NCBI GenBank assembly: GCA_018065085.1
Contig: JAGHUA010000003.1
Location: 1-64,000 of the forward strand
DNA from: Candidatus Liminaster caballi
Lineage (GTDB): Bacteria; Bacteroidota; Bacteroidia; Bacteroidales; UBA3663
Length of the DNA stretch: 64,000 bases
Reading direction: 5' to 3'
Below are positions 1-58,065 of this stretch, one piece after another (within the stretch, counting starts at the first letter, position 1; every line of letters starts with the position of its first letter). Under the pieces are notes generated by a model that was given only the letters and a program-made list of their open reading frames with translations, made no database searches and had not been told where the DNA came from. Both the position numbers and the translations under genes were made by a program.

Positions 1-3000
1 GGAGCGGCCCACGACACGACCTGGGCTGTTGGTGTGCCAGTGACCGGCACCGTAGCATGTGGAATATGCAGACGTGTCAGATGTCACAGATGAAGGCACC
101 ACGTCACAGTAGCGGCCATGCTTCAGGCGGGCGATGTTGTTGCCGGATGCTGATGTGAGACCCTGCACGACTCGCTCCGTATCGGTGTGCGGGTCGTAGA
201 TGTGCCACTTGCCATCGGTCGGGCCGATCTGGTTCTGGTATGCCTTCCACCACTCCTTGAACGTGGTGATGTTCACGCCCAGGTTGTCCATGATCTCATA
301 GACGCAGGCGATGAAGCCCTCCAGGCCGAACACCTTGTTCACGCCGGTGTCCTTGTTGTACTCAGTGTCGAGCGTTCCGAAGCTGTCACGCACGCCGCAG
401 GTATAGTCCGGACTGTTACCGAAGCCGTAGATGCGCTGATCGTCGCGGTTGCCATAGTAACAGCGTGATAGGATGGCCATCGTCTTCGACTCCTCGTATG
501 GGATGGAGCCGTAGCCACGGCCACGCATGTGGCAGAGGTTGAACAGATCCTTGTAGGTGTAGTTCATTGCCGAGATAGGTGCGGCTGTCGGGTTGCCCTC
601 TGAGTCGTATCGCCACTCTGATGACGTGGTAGATGTACCCGTACCTCTTCGAGTCTTACGTCCGGCGATTGAGCGCGCCTGTCCGAGATCGTCGAGGCTG
701 ACCGAGTAGATACCCACCAGGGCAGACTCATGCAGCACCCACCCCGGCTCGATTGCCTCGATGTCCGTGCTGTCCACCGCGAAGGCTTCCAGGTTGTCGA
801 AGCCCCTCATGCAGGTGAAGTAGAGCCAGCGGGCACCTGTCGGGATGTCGCGGAACACGTAGTCGCCGTTCTCGTTCTTGAAGTCGATGGGCGAGCCGGT
901 CGTGCCCGTGATGCTGAAGGCATGCACGCTCAGCACCTTGTTGTTCGCGTCGGTGAATACCGCGCCGTATGTCGCGTTGATCAGTCCGATGTATCGGGCC
1001 TGCTTGCATCCGAGCACGTCCAGACGGTACACTGCACACGATGCCAGCGTGCTGATGGCATCCTCAGGCATTGCTGCACCCACACGGCAGACGTTACAGT
1101 TCAAGCCCATGTAGTCGCGGTAGAGCAGCGTCGAGAGCTTGCCGCCTCTCTTGACCGTCCACGTTGCCTCAGGCTCGTCGTGGCCGTAAGACAGCAGGGT
1201 GTGCTTCTTCTGGTTCTTGAAGTCGTTCACGCCCTTATACCAGAAACGAGGCACGCGGATGAAGAAGTCATAGCCCACACCGAGAGCGTCGCCGTTGTCG
1301 CTTGACTCCACGTCGTCCGGCATGTAGCGGTAGTCCTTGGTCGATATAGGCTCCACCACCATCGTGCCCTTCGCGGCGTTGTATTTGCCGCGCACTGGCA
1401 GGCAGCGCTTGCGGAGTGCCAGGATGTAGCCGGACGGCTCGTAGTCCTTGCCCGTTCCGTAGCCCGTGCCGTTGTCGAGGTTGGTGATGTTGGCCGGGTC
1501 TGTCTCCAGATCACTCTCCACGTAGTCGGAGTAGAGCGCGTTCTTGACAGCGAGCTCAGGGAATGAGCGCTGCCATGAGTTGATCAGCTCCTCCTCAGTG
1601 TATGACAGCAGTCTGCACTTGCCGATGATGGCCGGTGTCGATTGCTGTGTCATCGTAGCGTCGAGACCTGCCAGCTTCATTCCTGCCAGCTTGGTCATGA
1701 TGTCCGCGTTCACTGTAGCGTTCACGCCTGTGACGCGCACGGTCTTGAGCTTCGAGCCGGATGCAGACGCGAGCGTTGTCAGCAGCTCCCAGCCGTTGAT
1801 CTGTGGGCAGTCCTCCACCACGAGCGTGTCGATGTTGGCCGCGTTCTGGAACGAAATGCCCGAGCGCGTGAGGTTTTGCAGGAAGCGCATCTGTAGGTTC
1901 TTGTAGGTCGATGGCAGTTGCAGGCGTGTGATCTTCGAGGCTTCGGCCAGCACCACGCGCTGAAGCTGTGAGTCGTTACCCAGCAGCGTGATCAGGCGCG
2001 GGCAGTAGGTGGCGTTCACCGTCGTGATGTAAGTGCGACGGATGTCCAGCTCCTCCAGGAACGGCATGTTTCCGAGGTCGAGCGTCGTCAGATAGCCCTC
2101 GTTGTGGTTGGTCGGCACGTATGACGCGCCACCGATCACGAACTTGCGCAGCAGCTTGAGCTGAGCGATGTCCCACGAGTAGGCCGATGGCGTTGCCTCG
2201 TGGATGTCCAGCTCCTCCAGCTTATCAGCACCGAAGATGTAGAGCTGAGTGCCCGAGCCGCTGTTGGTGGTGTAGGTCCTGAGCGTTGCAGTCTCACCAG
2301 CTTCGAGATATACGGAGTCGGTGGCCACGTTCGCGCGGTCCACGCCCACGCCGAAGTATCCGGCCTTCGCTGCCTTGATGTAGATCTTGATGTTGGTGCC
2401 GGTGACACGCATTGACATGACGCTGTTGAAGAGGTCGCCCGTCTGGTAGAAGCCATCACGGAAGAGGAAGCGGGTGCGGATGAACTCCTTCAGGCGCTGG
2501 ATGCTCAGTCCATGGAGCGCGTAGAGGTAGTTGACAGTCGAGGTCGCTGTCCTCACATACTTGCGCTCGCCGTCGAACGAGCTCACCAGCTTCGGCCACT
2601 TGCTCAGGCGGTCAGTCACCCAGTATTTCACCAGGCCATCGTAGCTGAACGGACGGATGCCGCCCGTCTCCACTGCACGCATGTCTGCCACTACCTTGGC
2701 CAGGCTGATGGTCTTTGATCCATAGTCGTCGAGCCAGTATTCGCCCGTCGGTCCTGCGTTGCCTATCTGTGAGAAGATCACGCTGTCGTGGCCCTGATAT
2801 ACGCCACCCTCGTCATCGTTCGGGTCGAGCAGGACGGGCACGGTCAGGCCGCAGTCGTTGTCTGATCCGAGAATTGTGTCACCGTCGTACAGATGCTGGA
2901 ACGATGCACGGATGAGGTTGTCCATATACATGTAGAACGAGATCATCATGTTCTTGCTTCGCTGATCCACGGCGGCGAGGTAATCGGTCACGGCCGCATA

Positions 3001-39666: not shown

Positions 39667-40200
39667 TCATTCGGGGTTAGAGGTTACACTGTCCGGCTGT
39701 TCCTCGTTGCCCCAGCACTGAGCCACGTCTGGGTCGGTGAAGTAGAAGTCGGCGTAGATGTCCAGGAACTGCTCGCCCGCGTATTCGGCCAGCGCCTCAG
39801 TTTTGAAGGCAAGGCGCGCGCCGCCGTACGTGTTCGAGTACGATGACGCATTATTCGCGTTCGCACAAACGAGGCCGCCGCCCGCGTTCGCATTGTTGCT
39901 GGAGCGGCCCACGACACGCCCCAGTGGCTTCGCGTGTAGCTCAGGATGATCAGCGGCGAACTCTTCAGTGCAGACAAAGCACCAGGGGTAGTAGCGGCGC
40001 TCACCTGGATCGAAGGTTGGCACCCATCCCTCGTTCAGGGCTTCGGCAATCAGTCGGATCTTGAAAGCTGCCACCATATCAGAGGGCAGCAAGTGGGTGA
40101 TGGCATAGAACTCTCCCGGCTCCATCTTGACGGCCTTGAGCACGTCATCCATCGTCTTGATCTTCTCACAGATCTCAGGGAGTTTAGTTTTTTTTCTCAT
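39667..40200 (-). CDS. DGR-target-like small lectin-fold phage protein
   Basis: 177 residues from MRKKTKLPEICEKIKTMDDV at 40200; the track's start lies within the promoter leader. EALNEGWVPTFDPGERRYYPW and TEALAEYAGEQFLDIYADF match a small protein family I recall from Bacteroidetes phages. The centre reads GRVVGRSSNNANAGGGLVCA then NANNASSYSNTYGGARLAF: alternating Asn/Ala/Ser/Tyr/Gly as in variable regions of DGR C-type-lectin targets, with Asn written as AAC/AAT. The RVVGRS codons are identical to those at the end of the giant fibre. First gene of the leftward early operon. Confidence 0.75.
   Translation of the reverse strand: MRKKTKLPEICEKIKTMDDVLKAVKMEPGEFYAITHLLPSDMVAAFKIRLIAEALNEGWVPTFDPGERRYYPWCFVCTEEFAADHPELHAKPLGRVVGRSSNNANAGGGLVCANANNASSYSNTYGGARLAFKTEALAEYAGEQFLDIYADFYFTDPDVAQCWGNEEQPDSVTSNPE
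39820..39918 (-). repeat. DGR template/variable-repeat-like segment
   Basis: The last 18 bases (39901-39918) are identical to window positions 1-18 in the same strand and codon phase. The adjoining coding strand has repeated AAC/AAT and TAC codons (seven Asn and two Tyr among about 30 codons) between GC-rich GCG/GGC codons. Adenine-bearing codons at variable positions are the hallmark of DGR templates. The other copy lies mostly beyond the left edge, so pairing cannot be verified. Confidence 0.5.
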
Positions 40201-41470: not shown

Positions 41471-41513
41471 AAAACTATGGCCAACCAGGCATCGCCTGAT
41501 TGGCCATAGTTTT
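41471..41513. terminator. Bidirectional terminator
   Basis: AAAACTATGGCCAA pairs with TTGGCCATAGTTTT, and inside it CAGGC with GCCTG, giving a near-perfect 20-bp stem with A and T runs on either side. It serves the remnant gene and the convergent deacetylase gene. Confidence 0.85.
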
Positions 41514-41582: not shown

Positions 41583-42611
41583 TTAGTTGGCCTTAATTGT
41601 TACCTTTGTGCCGTTAGGCAGGGCGTTGATGAGGAGATAGCCGTCGAAGGCAGTGATGGCGAGAGGCTTGCCATCCTGAGTGGCTTGGTACCGGCCGTTG
41701 GCTGAGAATGAACCGTTGACACAGAATGTGAGAGGCTGGTCATAGAGATCGGCTGAGAGGGTGCGGAGGCTTGGAGTGAACGATGCTTCACCTCTGCCTG
41801 CGTGGATGTCGGTGATGACGGCATCTGCTGCCTCACGGGTGTAGGCAGCTACTTCTTCGAACGTGCCTACCCATACGCTGTCGCTGGCAGCTTTCACTTC
41901 GTCGAAGAATGAATAGAGTACCTGCGGCTCGTTCCACATGTCCCAACCGTATGTCGTGCCGTGGGTCATGGTTACGCCCCATCGTCCGTGGCTTATCACG
42001 TCGTGCAGCCAGAGAGTGAGCGAATCTGCAGTCTGATGGCTGAAGGCCTGACCGTGTGACGCCCAATAGGTGCGCGACCCGACACGTCCCTCCTCGCAGA
42101 TGGCAATGACCTCGTCGTTCATGGCGTTGTATGGATAGCAGAACGTGCGCGGCTTGCGTCCGGTGACAGACTCTATGACCGAGTCATTGTATGCCACTTC
42201 CCATCGCACTGAGTCGAGTGGGATGGCAGTGAGGTCTGGATGGTTCCATGCGTGATTGCTTATCTCGTGTCCGCGGTCGGCAAGTTCCTTTACCTGAGTC
42301 CATGTCATCCACGGATAGTCAGGCACATCGCTGTCCATATTGGCACCGATGATCCAGAATGTGCCGCGCATGTCACGATTCTCCAATTCGGGAGCAATGT
42401 CTGTGTAATGGCAGAGCATGCCATCATCGAACGTGAAGCTGATGGCCGATGCCTTGTCGTTGAGATATGGTGTCACTTCGACCGAAGAGATTTCGATGCC
42501 AGAGCAAGAGGAGAGGAGAAGACTGATGACGGCTCCTCCAACGGCCCATCCCAGCCTCCCACAAGGGGAGGCGTGGAATGTATTGATGGGTCGGGATATG
42601 ATATGGCTCAT
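41583..42611 (-). CDS. Polysaccharide deacetylase lipoprotein (NodB domain)
   Basis: 342 residues. A lipobox (LLLSSCSG, Cys near residue 36) marks a lipoprotein; a somewhat later start may be used. The NodB domain has ISFTFDDGMLCHYTDIAPEL (catalytic base and metal Asp), GHEISNHAWNHPDL (metal His pair) and FCYPYNAMN. These point to metal-dependent removal of acetyl groups from a glycan, which one is unknown. After residue 270 a small beta domain (ADLYDQPLTFCVNGSFSANG) may help substrate binding. It lies two bases from the membrane-protein gene, so they may be co-transcribed. Confidence 0.85.
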   Translation of the reverse strand: MSHIISRPINTFHASPCGRLGWAVGGAVISLLLSSCSGIEISSVEVTPYLNDKASAISFTFDDGMLCHYTDIAPELENRDMRGTFWIIGANMDSDVPDYPWMTWTQVKELADRGHEISNHAWNHPDLTAIPLDSVRWEVAYNDSVIESVTGRKPRTFCYPYNAMNDEVIAICEEGRVGSRTYWASHGQAFSHQTADSLTLWLHDVISHGRWGVTMTHGTTYGWDMWNEPQVLYSFFDEVKAASDSVWVGTFEEVAAYTREAADAVITDIHAGRGEASFTPSLRTLSADLYDQPLTFCVNGSFSANGRYQATQDGKPLAITAFDGYLLINALPNGTKVTIKAN

Positions 42612-55269: not shown

Positions 55270-55720
55270 GTACTAAGACTTGGGAGCTAACAAAAAAAAG
55301 TTTGGCGGTTAGACTTAAGAGTTGGGAAGTCGTCAGAACATTGTTCCGAGGATTTGCCAAGACTTGGGAAGTCGCCAGAACATTGTTCTGAGCATTTCCT
55401 AAAACCTTGGAAGTCGTCAGAACATTGTTCTCAGCATTTCCAGGAACCTGGAAGTCGTCAGAACATTGTTCCCAGCATTTCCAGAAAGCTGGAAATCCAA
55501 AACAAACTTTCGGCAGCATTTCCTAAGAGTTGGGAAGTCCAAATGAAACTTTTGTCAGCATTTCCTAAGAGTTGGGAAGTCCAAACAAAACTTTTGTTAG
55601 CATTTCCTAAGAGTTGGGAAGTCCAAACAAAACTTTTGTTAGCATTTCCTAAGACCTGGGAAGTCCAAATGAAACTTTTGTTAGCATTTCCTAAGACCTG
55701 GGAAGTCCAAATGAAAGTTT
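55270..55720. repeat. 42-bp tandem repeat array with internal dyads
   Basis: About ten units of 41-42 bases in two families. Family A has AGAACATTGTTCT; family B has AACAAAACTTTTGTT at the same place. Both are near-perfect palindromes although the bases differ. A second dyad, TTTCC...GGAA, lies at every unit border, in two cases extended (TTCCAGG-AA-CCTGGAA; ATTTCCAG-AAAG-CTGGAAAT). A 14-residue repeat ORF (55354-55797) is a by-product of the unit length. No spacer variation, so not a CRISPR. Confidence 0.9.
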
Positions 55721-55747
55721 TTCATGCTGTACGGTTAAAACAATTAA

Positions 55748-55847
55748 TGAACTGTAATTCGTGGATAATTCATGGCAATTCGTGTTCAAAATATTAAATA
55801 TTGCCTGCGGCGCAACATAAATTTACCATTGTCCACGAATCAGTTCA
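55748..55847. repeat. Long inverted repeat downstream of the array
   Basis: TGAACTGTAATTCGTGGA (55748-55765) matches the reverse of TCCACGAATCAGTTCA (55832-55847) with a 2-base bulge. About 66 bases lie between. It may be a folded RNA end or a small mobile-element remnant. The remaining bases up to 56021 are AT-rich with no gene. Confidence 0.6.
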
Positions 55848-56021
55848 TAAATTATTTCATCCCTACAGGTCGAAAGGTTTTCCCGATATTTCTGTCCTTT
55901 CGGCAAGCCCTTTCTTTATTTAAATATGCGTAGTATTAGCATAGAAAAGTTAGAAAAACGGCATGTTTTTATAGGTCTTCGTGCCTGTTTGTTATCTTTT
56001 TGTTACTTTTTCGGCCCTTTA

Positions 56022-56053
56022 TTTGTTGATATAATAAATTTTTACTAACTTTG
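56022..56053 (+). promoter_or_regulatory. Promoter of the secreted Big2 protein gene
   Basis: TTTG, 20 bases, TAACTTTG: perfect consensus. The start is about 40 bases before the ATG at 56101, with an AT-rich leader. Confidence 0.75.
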
Positions 56054-56100
56054 CGCACGTTTTTAGAAATCTATATTCATAACAAATAAATATTTATCTC

Positions 56101-58065
56101 ATGAAAAAACTATTATTAACTTTGCTCGTTGCTGTGATGAGTATTACGGCGTGGGCGCAAGATCCAGATTGGAGTGTGACTTCTTTCAGTGGTTCAATTT
56201 CCTCCAATTCAACAACTATCAACGAAGCCACATGGACATTGTCAGACATGACTACGGGTGCTGGTACTCCTGCATGGACTGTCAGCAGCAGCAAATGGAA
56301 GTTTGGAAGTAGTAAGACTGTCTTCTGGAGTGAATACACACTCTCAACAAATAAGTTTAATTCTTACAACATCACTAAAGTACAAGTTGGTTGCTATGAT
56401 AATGGTGGTACTGAAAGTTCCGTTACAGTTAAACAAGGCTCTATAACCATCGGTTCTGCGACTGTATCGACAACAACTACATCAAACGTTGAGACATTGA
56501 ACGAAGCCCAAGGAGAGGGTGGTGCCTTACAGATTACCTTTACTTCAACCAAGCAAGCTTCTTATATCACATCTATCAAAGTGTGGTACACTTTAGGTGG
56601 TGATGCAGTTCATGTGGAGAGTGTCACTCTAGATCAGCACAACCTCGTTGTCATGGAATCAAAGTCTGCTACTCTTACTGCCACTGTTGCTCCTGTTAAT
56701 GCAACAAATCAGAATGTAGCCTGGAGTTCAAGCAACACAGATGTTGCTACTGTTGATGGAGGTGTTGTAAAAGGTAAAAGCGAAGGCACCGCAACGATTA
56801 CAGTAACCACTTCCGATGGAAGTTTTACTGACCAATGTTTAGTAACCGTTACACCAAAGGAAGCACCAGCCGGTTCAGTTTTTTATGAGTCGTTCGACCA
56901 ATTGGAAGGTTCTGGTGGTAATGATGATGTTTGGTCAGGTATATCTGGAACATATGCATGGGAAACAGAAGTTTGCGATAACGAAGGTTGGACTACAGAG
57001 GGTACAATGAACAAGGGTGCTCAGTGTGCTTCTATTCGCAAAGGTACTTCTGGAGGCAAGAACATAGCTTCCGGCCTTACAACTCCTGCTATCGGTGTTG
57101 CTGGTAATGGTAATATCACATTCAACGCACAGTCTTGGGGTACTGATACTGGTGACTTCTATGTCGACATTGTTGGCGGCGGCACGTTCTTGCCAGCATC
57201 AGGTGTCACTCTTTCAAACAGCAACAAAACCGCAAAGGTGACATTAACTAAGAAGAGCGAGTGGGGCGATTATGATCTCTCATTCATTGGTCTTACTGCA
57301 AATAGCAAGTTCCGTTTCTACATGGCAGCAGGCAAGCGTGGATTCCTTGACGAAGTTGCAATTTTCGTAACACCATCTAATGAAGGCACCCTTGACTTCG
57401 CAGCAGAAGATGGAGCCGGTTCTGGCGATTATTATGCAACATTCAGCAGCACTCGCAATGTTGTTATGCCAGCAACGCCAGATGCTAACACTGTGATTGC
57501 AGTATATGCGCTTGCTGCTGATGGTTCTGGATTGTCATTCGTTGACTTCGATGTCGATTTTGACAACACTGATTCAAATGGTGATATCATCATTCCTGCA
57601 AATACTGGTGTTCTGGTTTATGCAATTACAACTAATCCGTCTGCGCCATCTGTAACTTACAGTTATACAGAGGAGACAGGTTCAGGTTATGACCCAGAGT
57701 TCAACCTCCTTCGTCCTGCTTCAGTTGCTATGGAGGGTGACTTTAAGTTCTACAAGCTGGCTTACGATGACTACACCAATAAGACTGGTCTTGGCTTCTA
57801 CTGGGGCGCAGCAGATGGCGCAGCATTCACAGCTAAGGCTGGCGGTGCTTATCTCGCAGTTCCTACTTCAAGTTCAGCAAGCCTGATGCGTGGCTTCAGC
57901 TTCGACGACATCAACGGATCGGAGACTGCCATCGAGGAAGTTGCCATCGAGAGCGTAGAGCAGACCACATCGGCATACAGCCTCACAGGTCAGCGCGTAG
58001 AGAAGGTGATGAACAATGGTCTCTACATCGTGGGTGGCGAGGTTAAGTACATGCGTGTTAAGTAA
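56101..58065 (+). CDS. Secreted protein with Big2 domain and C-terminal tail motif
   Basis: 654 residues. Signal peptide MKKLLLTLLVAVMSITAWAQ, cleaved after AQ. Residues about 25-170 are a beta domain. A Big2 (Ig-like) domain spans about 177-255 (VESVTLDQHNLVVMESKSAT, VAWSSSNTDVATVDGGVVKG). A jelly-roll-like region follows (about 260-440). The end TTSAYSLTGQRVEKVMNNGL then YIVGG matches the C-terminal tail of Bacteroidales exported proteins. Base composition is AT-richer than that of neighbouring genes. Likely surface or secreted; no catalytic residue identified. Confidence 0.85.
   Translation: MKKLLLTLLVAVMSITAWAQDPDWSVTSFSGSISSNSTTINEATWTLSDMTTGAGTPAWTVSSSKWKFGSSKTVFWSEYTLSTNKFNSYNITKVQVGCYDNGGTESSVTVKQGSITIGSATVSTTTTSNVETLNEAQGEGGALQITFTSTKQASYITSIKVWYTLGGDAVHVESVTLDQHNLVVMESKSATLTATVAPVNATNQNVAWSSSNTDVATVDGGVVKGKSEGTATITVTTSDGSFTDQCLVTVTPKEAPAGSVFYESFDQLEGSGGNDDVWSGISGTYAWETEVCDNEGWTTEGTMNKGAQCASIRKGTSGGKNIASGLTTPAIGVAGNGNITFNAQSWGTDTGDFYVDIVGGGTFLPASGVTLSNSNKTAKVTLTKKSEWGDYDLSFIGLTANSKFRFYMAAGKRGFLDEVAIFVTPSNEGTLDFAAEDGAGSGDYYATFSSTRNVVMPATPDANTVIAVYALAADGSGLSFVDFDVDFDNTDSNGDIIIPANTGVLVYAITTNPSAPSVTYSYTEETGSGYDPEFNLLRPASVAMEGDFKFYKLAYDDYTNKTGLGFYWGAADGAAFTAKAGGAYLAVPTSSSASLMRGFSFDDINGSETAIEEVAIESVEQTTSAYSLTGQRVEKVMNNGLYIVGGEVKYMRVK

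Follow-up and report, generated by a model that had tools for sequence, protein, structure and literature searches.

A temperate Bacteroidales phage, integrated in this genome as a prophage, very probably carries a DGR in which a single template (TR) serves two targets, one (VR1) at the C-terminal end of the tail protein and the other (VR2) within a small early protein. The gene of this small protein, the remote one of the two targets, is drawn from a widespread family and lies ~40 kb away from the TR. The window, meaning the whole stretch of 64,000 nucleotides that was analyzed, is C56:1-64000, where C56 is a contig of 138,042 bp in a genome of 2.94 Mb in 90 contigs (G000). Because the window starts this contig, its base 1 is a true contig end. 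A preliminary description had read the window as containing a DGR with one VR in the tail gene and another in the small gene, and this reading is supported by the evidence below.

The DGR cassette and the contig break

The 18-mer at window positions 1–18 is repeated at 39901–39918 on the same strand (repeat family D12), and both copies translate on the minus strand as RVVGRS in identical codon phase, as first described. In the small early gene, RVVGRS runs on into RVVGRSSNNANAGGGLVCANANNASSYSNTYGGARLAF. When the VR2 region was searched against its own genome, two matches were obtained on contig C21, one covering its first 19 bases and the other positions 203–316. The template and reverse transcriptase (RT) that had been expected beyond the left edge of the window are thus located, with the RT <2 kb away, inside the limit of about 10 kb allowed for it. 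The avd gene expected alongside them, an accessory that many but not all DGRs have, was not recognized, being absent from the Pfam matches of the C21 genes adjoining the RT. The features of the two contigs are as follows.

C56, 1–40880, minus strand: prophage part in the window, early region on the right and tail gene on the left, recognized from the att repeat, host genes, and synteny with BT-TP2
C56, 1–7902, minus strand: giant tail protein gene (phrog_14959, 1926 bits), cut at the C-terminal VR1 by the contig end
C56, 1–21, minus strand: 5' constant part of VR1, with no template adenines
C56, 39667–40200, minus strand: small early gene, 177 aa, second DGR target (phrog_11581)
C56, 39808–39921, minus strand: VR2, 114 bp, with 8 mismatches to the TR, all at TR adenines
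C56, 40361–40807, plus strand: divergent CI-like repressor gene adjoining the small early gene (phrog_8 / phrog_4 transcriptional regulators)
C56, 40864–40880, no strand assigned: putative core of the attachment site, AATCTCGTTCTCTCCGC, with a second copy next to the integrase on C21
C21, 203–316: TR, 114 bp, 27 adenines
C21, 507–1838: RT gene (RVT_1, E 6.5e-10; phrog_1423, E 8e-80), about 190 bp after the TR
C21, 1843–2304: DUF4376 gene
C21, 2301–2786: amidase gene
C21, 3934–5124, minus strand: tyrosine integrase gene

The remainder of the prophage occupies C21:1-5270 and comprises the VR1 end, TR, RT, DUF4376, amidase, and integrase. A 17-bp repeat, GCGGAGAGAACGAGATT, is found at C56:40864-40880 and C21:5254-5270, and host genes resume from window position 41583 and from C21:7517 (polysaccharide deacetylase and aminopeptidase P; glutamate dehydrogenase). 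Since the att repeat and the resumed host genes bound both sides, the prophage is ~46.2 kb long. A Mu-like or hankyphage identity was our first idea and was dropped; no transposase domain was found among the genes tested, and a tyrosine integrase and an att repeat are present. A near-perfect 20-bp inverted repeat lies just beyond the prophage end (window 41471–41513), and the host part of the contig contains an array of 42-nt direct repeats (window 55283–55763).

The giant tail protein gene is indeed truncated at the shared motif, as C56 starts inside its C-terminal VR1. C21 begins with the final 16 bases of the tail VR, which are followed by FFGSIENESALGD and a stop; the end of the tail gene on this contig is GARLAFFGSIENESALGD-stop. 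Measured along the TR, C56 reaches offset 20 and C21 begins at offset 98, and the TR adenines range from offset 21 to offset 97. This interval, the ~77-bp core of VR1, is unassembled, and only the constant ends of VR1 are present. By itself, a shared flank of 18 bp is not long enough to break a contig. We infer that VR1 alleles diverge at precisely the point where the assembler halted and, as the break coincides with the outermost template adenines, that the sampled population is polymorphic for VR1, which agrees with the original proposal that a hypervariable VR accounts for the contig end. A lectin fold in the tail protein is plausible. Polymorphic VRs would break contigs at the outermost template adenines, and such systems would thereby be hidden from annotation.

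The RT of this prophage has an intact reading frame and the catalytic motif YCDN; YCDD is found in same-genus and other relatives. Because YCDN replaces YCDD, the activity of this RT is in doubt: this copy may be impaired, or the base behind YCDN may belong to a minority variant or stem from the assembly. The assignment of the cassette to a DGR stands, as it rests on features other than the YxDD motif, and past DGR action on VR2 is not in doubt despite YCDN.

The small early gene and VR2

VR2 was aligned with the TR over 114 bp containing 27 TR adenines, and 8/8 mismatches fall at adenines (p 4e-6), the bias that the preliminary description had anticipated. VR1, VR2, and the TR have in common a GC-rich constant 3' end, CGGCGCGCGCCTTGCC, which would correspond to an IMH-like 3' end of the VR.

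All 63 aligned members of the small-protein family match phrog_11581, a family without known function. When these 63 members were compared with Pfam, no family matched more than one of them, and each such match was weak. Two AlphaFold models of the small protein give pLDDT values below 50 for the VR; Foldseek searches with the models returned no solved relative, only uncharacterized phage proteins, and no credible match turned up when the family profile was searched against PDB sequences. The gene adjoins the repressor gene in this prophage and HTH genes in BT-TP2. In many relatives, its neighbors resemble proteins that we take to be RecT, an SbcC-like ATPase, a metal-dependent hydrolase, a DnaD-like protein, and a DnaC-like protein, and the annotation of phage Versailles gives the same neighbor order (RecT, SbcC-like, hydrolase, replisome organizer, DnaC-like). 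The usual site of the small gene is among early recombination/replication genes. The Versailles copy itself (L178:5182-5763) is annotated as a tail protein though it lies between recombination and replication genes.

Recurrence and comparison with known systems

Relatives of the small protein are encoded on 260 stretches in IMG/VR. Among 44 IMG/VR small-gene records, RVT_1 detected an RT in 28 and a PHROG RT profile did so in 2 others; the remaining 14 had no RT even with phrog_1423 and may be fragments, RT loss being possible as well. Six of six further phage records tested contain an RT. In 28 viral records taken as pairs, a set that includes some close relatives, the mismatches located at TR adenines number 391/403 for VR2 and 392/400 for the second VR/VR1. 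Both VRs are in matching codon phase in 27 records; in these, TR adenines occupy codon positions 1–2 in 685/712 cases, and only 3/408 adenine-bearing codons are able to become stops. In one of the 28 paired records (G441), the second VR is in a paralogous small gene, in the fashion of marine phages, instead of the tail gene, and in another (G401) the best template match is poorer, with just 12/19 mismatches at A. The small gene lies about 9 to 76 kb from the RT in remote-type records.

A phrog_11581 match was found in 13/393 Bacteroidales genomes, several of which have, on a single contig, the small gene, tail VR, and TR separated by tens of kb, with adenine-biased mismatches. One Bacteroidales contig (G314:C3) carries two small-protein genes (55630–56190 and 112263–112853), with the tail VR and TR near 99.7–100 kb. 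In Muricauda and other marine Flavobacteriia, the TR and RT come immediately after two small genes in tandem. Mismatches at TR adenines number 15/15 in crAss-like cr56_1 and 15/16 in Versailles. The short small-protein homologues of cr56_1 (L185:1522-1929) and cr60_1 (L186:1504-1911) differ from one another mainly in the VR.

Diversification is clear, from sequence comparison, in the LoVE-type relatives. Six loci of LoVEphage, BI-TP1, and PV4-TP1 are 96.7–100% identical over 1 kb, and 23/23 variable VR2 positions are at TR adenines, of which the TR has 26 (Fisher p 8e-28). Induction yielded BI-TP1 from one host species and PV4-TP1 from another.

BT-TP2 (PQ571279.1) has the same gene order as the prophage described here: VR1 at the end of the giant tail gene, TR, RT, DUF4376, integrase, HTH genes, and a small gene with VR2. 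All of its mismatches fall at TR adenines (VR1, 11/11; VR2, 10/10). It differs in its RT motif, YCDD, and in that the ends of the record fall inside its small gene, the VR2 gene, which is unannotated for that reason. The record (L030), deposited as a "complete genome," has a 141-bp terminal overlap.

Quimbyvirus has two VRs, and the gene that holds the second is non-structural and has methyltransferases and a tRNA ligase nearby (Benler 2021, PMC8008677), and the authors who described Quimbyvirus and LoVEphage read the second target as part of a defense-related island and as a C-type lectin (PMC8008677, PMC8525569). These phages are like ours in having one TR, a VR in the tail region, and a second remote VR in a non-structural gene. 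However, they are about 71 kb with an RT split over frames, whereas the present phage is a 46-kb integrase prophage with an unsplit RT and a small gene beside the repressor. Both LoVEphage and Quimbyvirus match a B. dorei CP011531.1 prophage at about 95%. The second VR of LoVEphage is in a member of the small-protein family, located near methyltransferase and RtcB genes, and this VR2 matches the LoVEphage TR. From the shared prophage match and the gene neighbors, we infer that the second target of Quimbyvirus (ORF80/84) belongs to the same family; one phrog_11581-family member has thus very probably been reported already, as that target.

Other systems share fewer of these features. The crAss-like DGRs (PMC7290462, PMC11054128, PMC12386605) have the target gene-VR-TR-RT order seen here, without avd; the searched passages of these papers give tail-fiber or receptor-binding proteins as targets and mention no small early one. 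Buchavirus cr56_1 resembles the present phage in carrying a remote VR in a small-protein homologue. Hankyphage is likewise a temperate Bacteroides phage with a DGR on a tail protein and a similar VR, but it is transposable, the tail VR is the sole one mentioned in the searched passages of its reports, and no match to the small gene was found in it (PMC6199706, PMC12135933). The Bacuni phage DGR also has two targets, one remote from the RT, but both are fimbrial-tip-like and avd is present (PMC8143477). Tentaclin cassettes contain both targets within the cassette, both with lectin domains (PMC10743442), whereas here the second target is ~40 kb off the TR. Remote targets were, by its own statement, beyond the detection of the Roux 2021 global DGR survey (PMC8144416).

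Possible function of the second target

The anatomy of the system, its adenine specificity, and the recurrence of the target pair in many phages are directly observed. Mutagenic homing is known from phage BPP-1, and homing to two targets is established for DGRs. If the same mechanism operates here, the RT would make errors at adenines as it copies the transcript of the TR, and the mutagenized cDNA would replace VR1 at the tail protein C-terminus and, remotely, VR2. For the small protein, we give roughly even odds to its being an early-made cytoplasmic binder whose variable surface recognizes a strain-variable host factor (a defense or replication/recombination protein). An intracellular partner is favored because the gene is early and distant from the structural genes. 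Each progeny phage would therefore test a new variant inside the next host, and the role of the small protein inside the host would parallel that of the tail tip outside.

It is unlikely, but conceivable, that the small protein is instead an accessory receptor binder of the virion or cell surface, a mini lectin alongside the tail, with both VRs serving adsorption. Its VR is homologous to tail VRs, residues 71–136 match the end of the tail-protein profile phrog_5302, and the Versailles annotation as a tail protein points the same way. However, the similarity to tail profiles consists mostly of the VR, and the gene is found in early regions among regulators or recombination/replication genes, distant from structural genes.

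We consider it improbable that the small protein acts in immunity or self-recognition by pairing with the phage's own tail variant, for example in sibling-phage exclusion or recognition. Where the same TR adenine is mutated in both VRs, the base is shared at 0.50 within a phage versus 0.417 between phages (1.6% of 500 shuffles), but this link between VR1 and VR2 is weak, and the common TR context may account for it. In every phage, VR1 and VR2 also have many differences, and in marine relatives only small paralogues beside the RT are targeted.

Still less probable is that VR2 is a by-product of a DGR that hits any VR copy, with no gain to the small gene. The scaffold outside the VR is conserved across very different phages, both targets retain the reading frame and a template designed to avoid stops, and members of the family repeatedly accompany a DGR in crAss-like, LoVE-type, BT-TP2-type, and marine phages, even if remote sites with TR homology can be acted upon by DGRs. 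Finally, a chance match or assembly artefact in a genome lacking a DGR, suggested by nothing beyond the initially short length of the 18-bp repeat, is refuted by the presence of the TR and RT in this genome and because VR2 matches the TR over 114 bp with all mismatches at template adenines. When viral contigs were searched for exact copies of the 18-mer, a single contig was returned, and it is unrelated.

An early-made cytoplasmic binder is our best guess for the small protein, and because the target pairing recurs in many relatives, these phages appear to randomize an internal protein together with the cell-binding tip. Phage DGR studies focus on tail tips, and a single non-structural target, that of Quimbyvirus, was described by Benler 2021 (PMC8008677). 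This kind of target is already known; what is new is its wide spread and the member identified here. Our data indicate that the second target is one conserved family that accompanies DGRs in many gut and marine Bacteroidota phages and chromosomal prophages, mostly in early regions. Therefore, the question of why a phage would mutate a non-tail protein becomes testable, and the inducible phages BI-TP1 and PV4-TP1 and the isolate BT-TP2 exist for such work. We tentatively suggest, at somewhat less than even odds, that in Bacteroidota phages, including some crAss-like ones, a conserved early family is routinely randomized by DGRs and would supply a renewed intracellular binder against strain-variable host defense or replication proteins.
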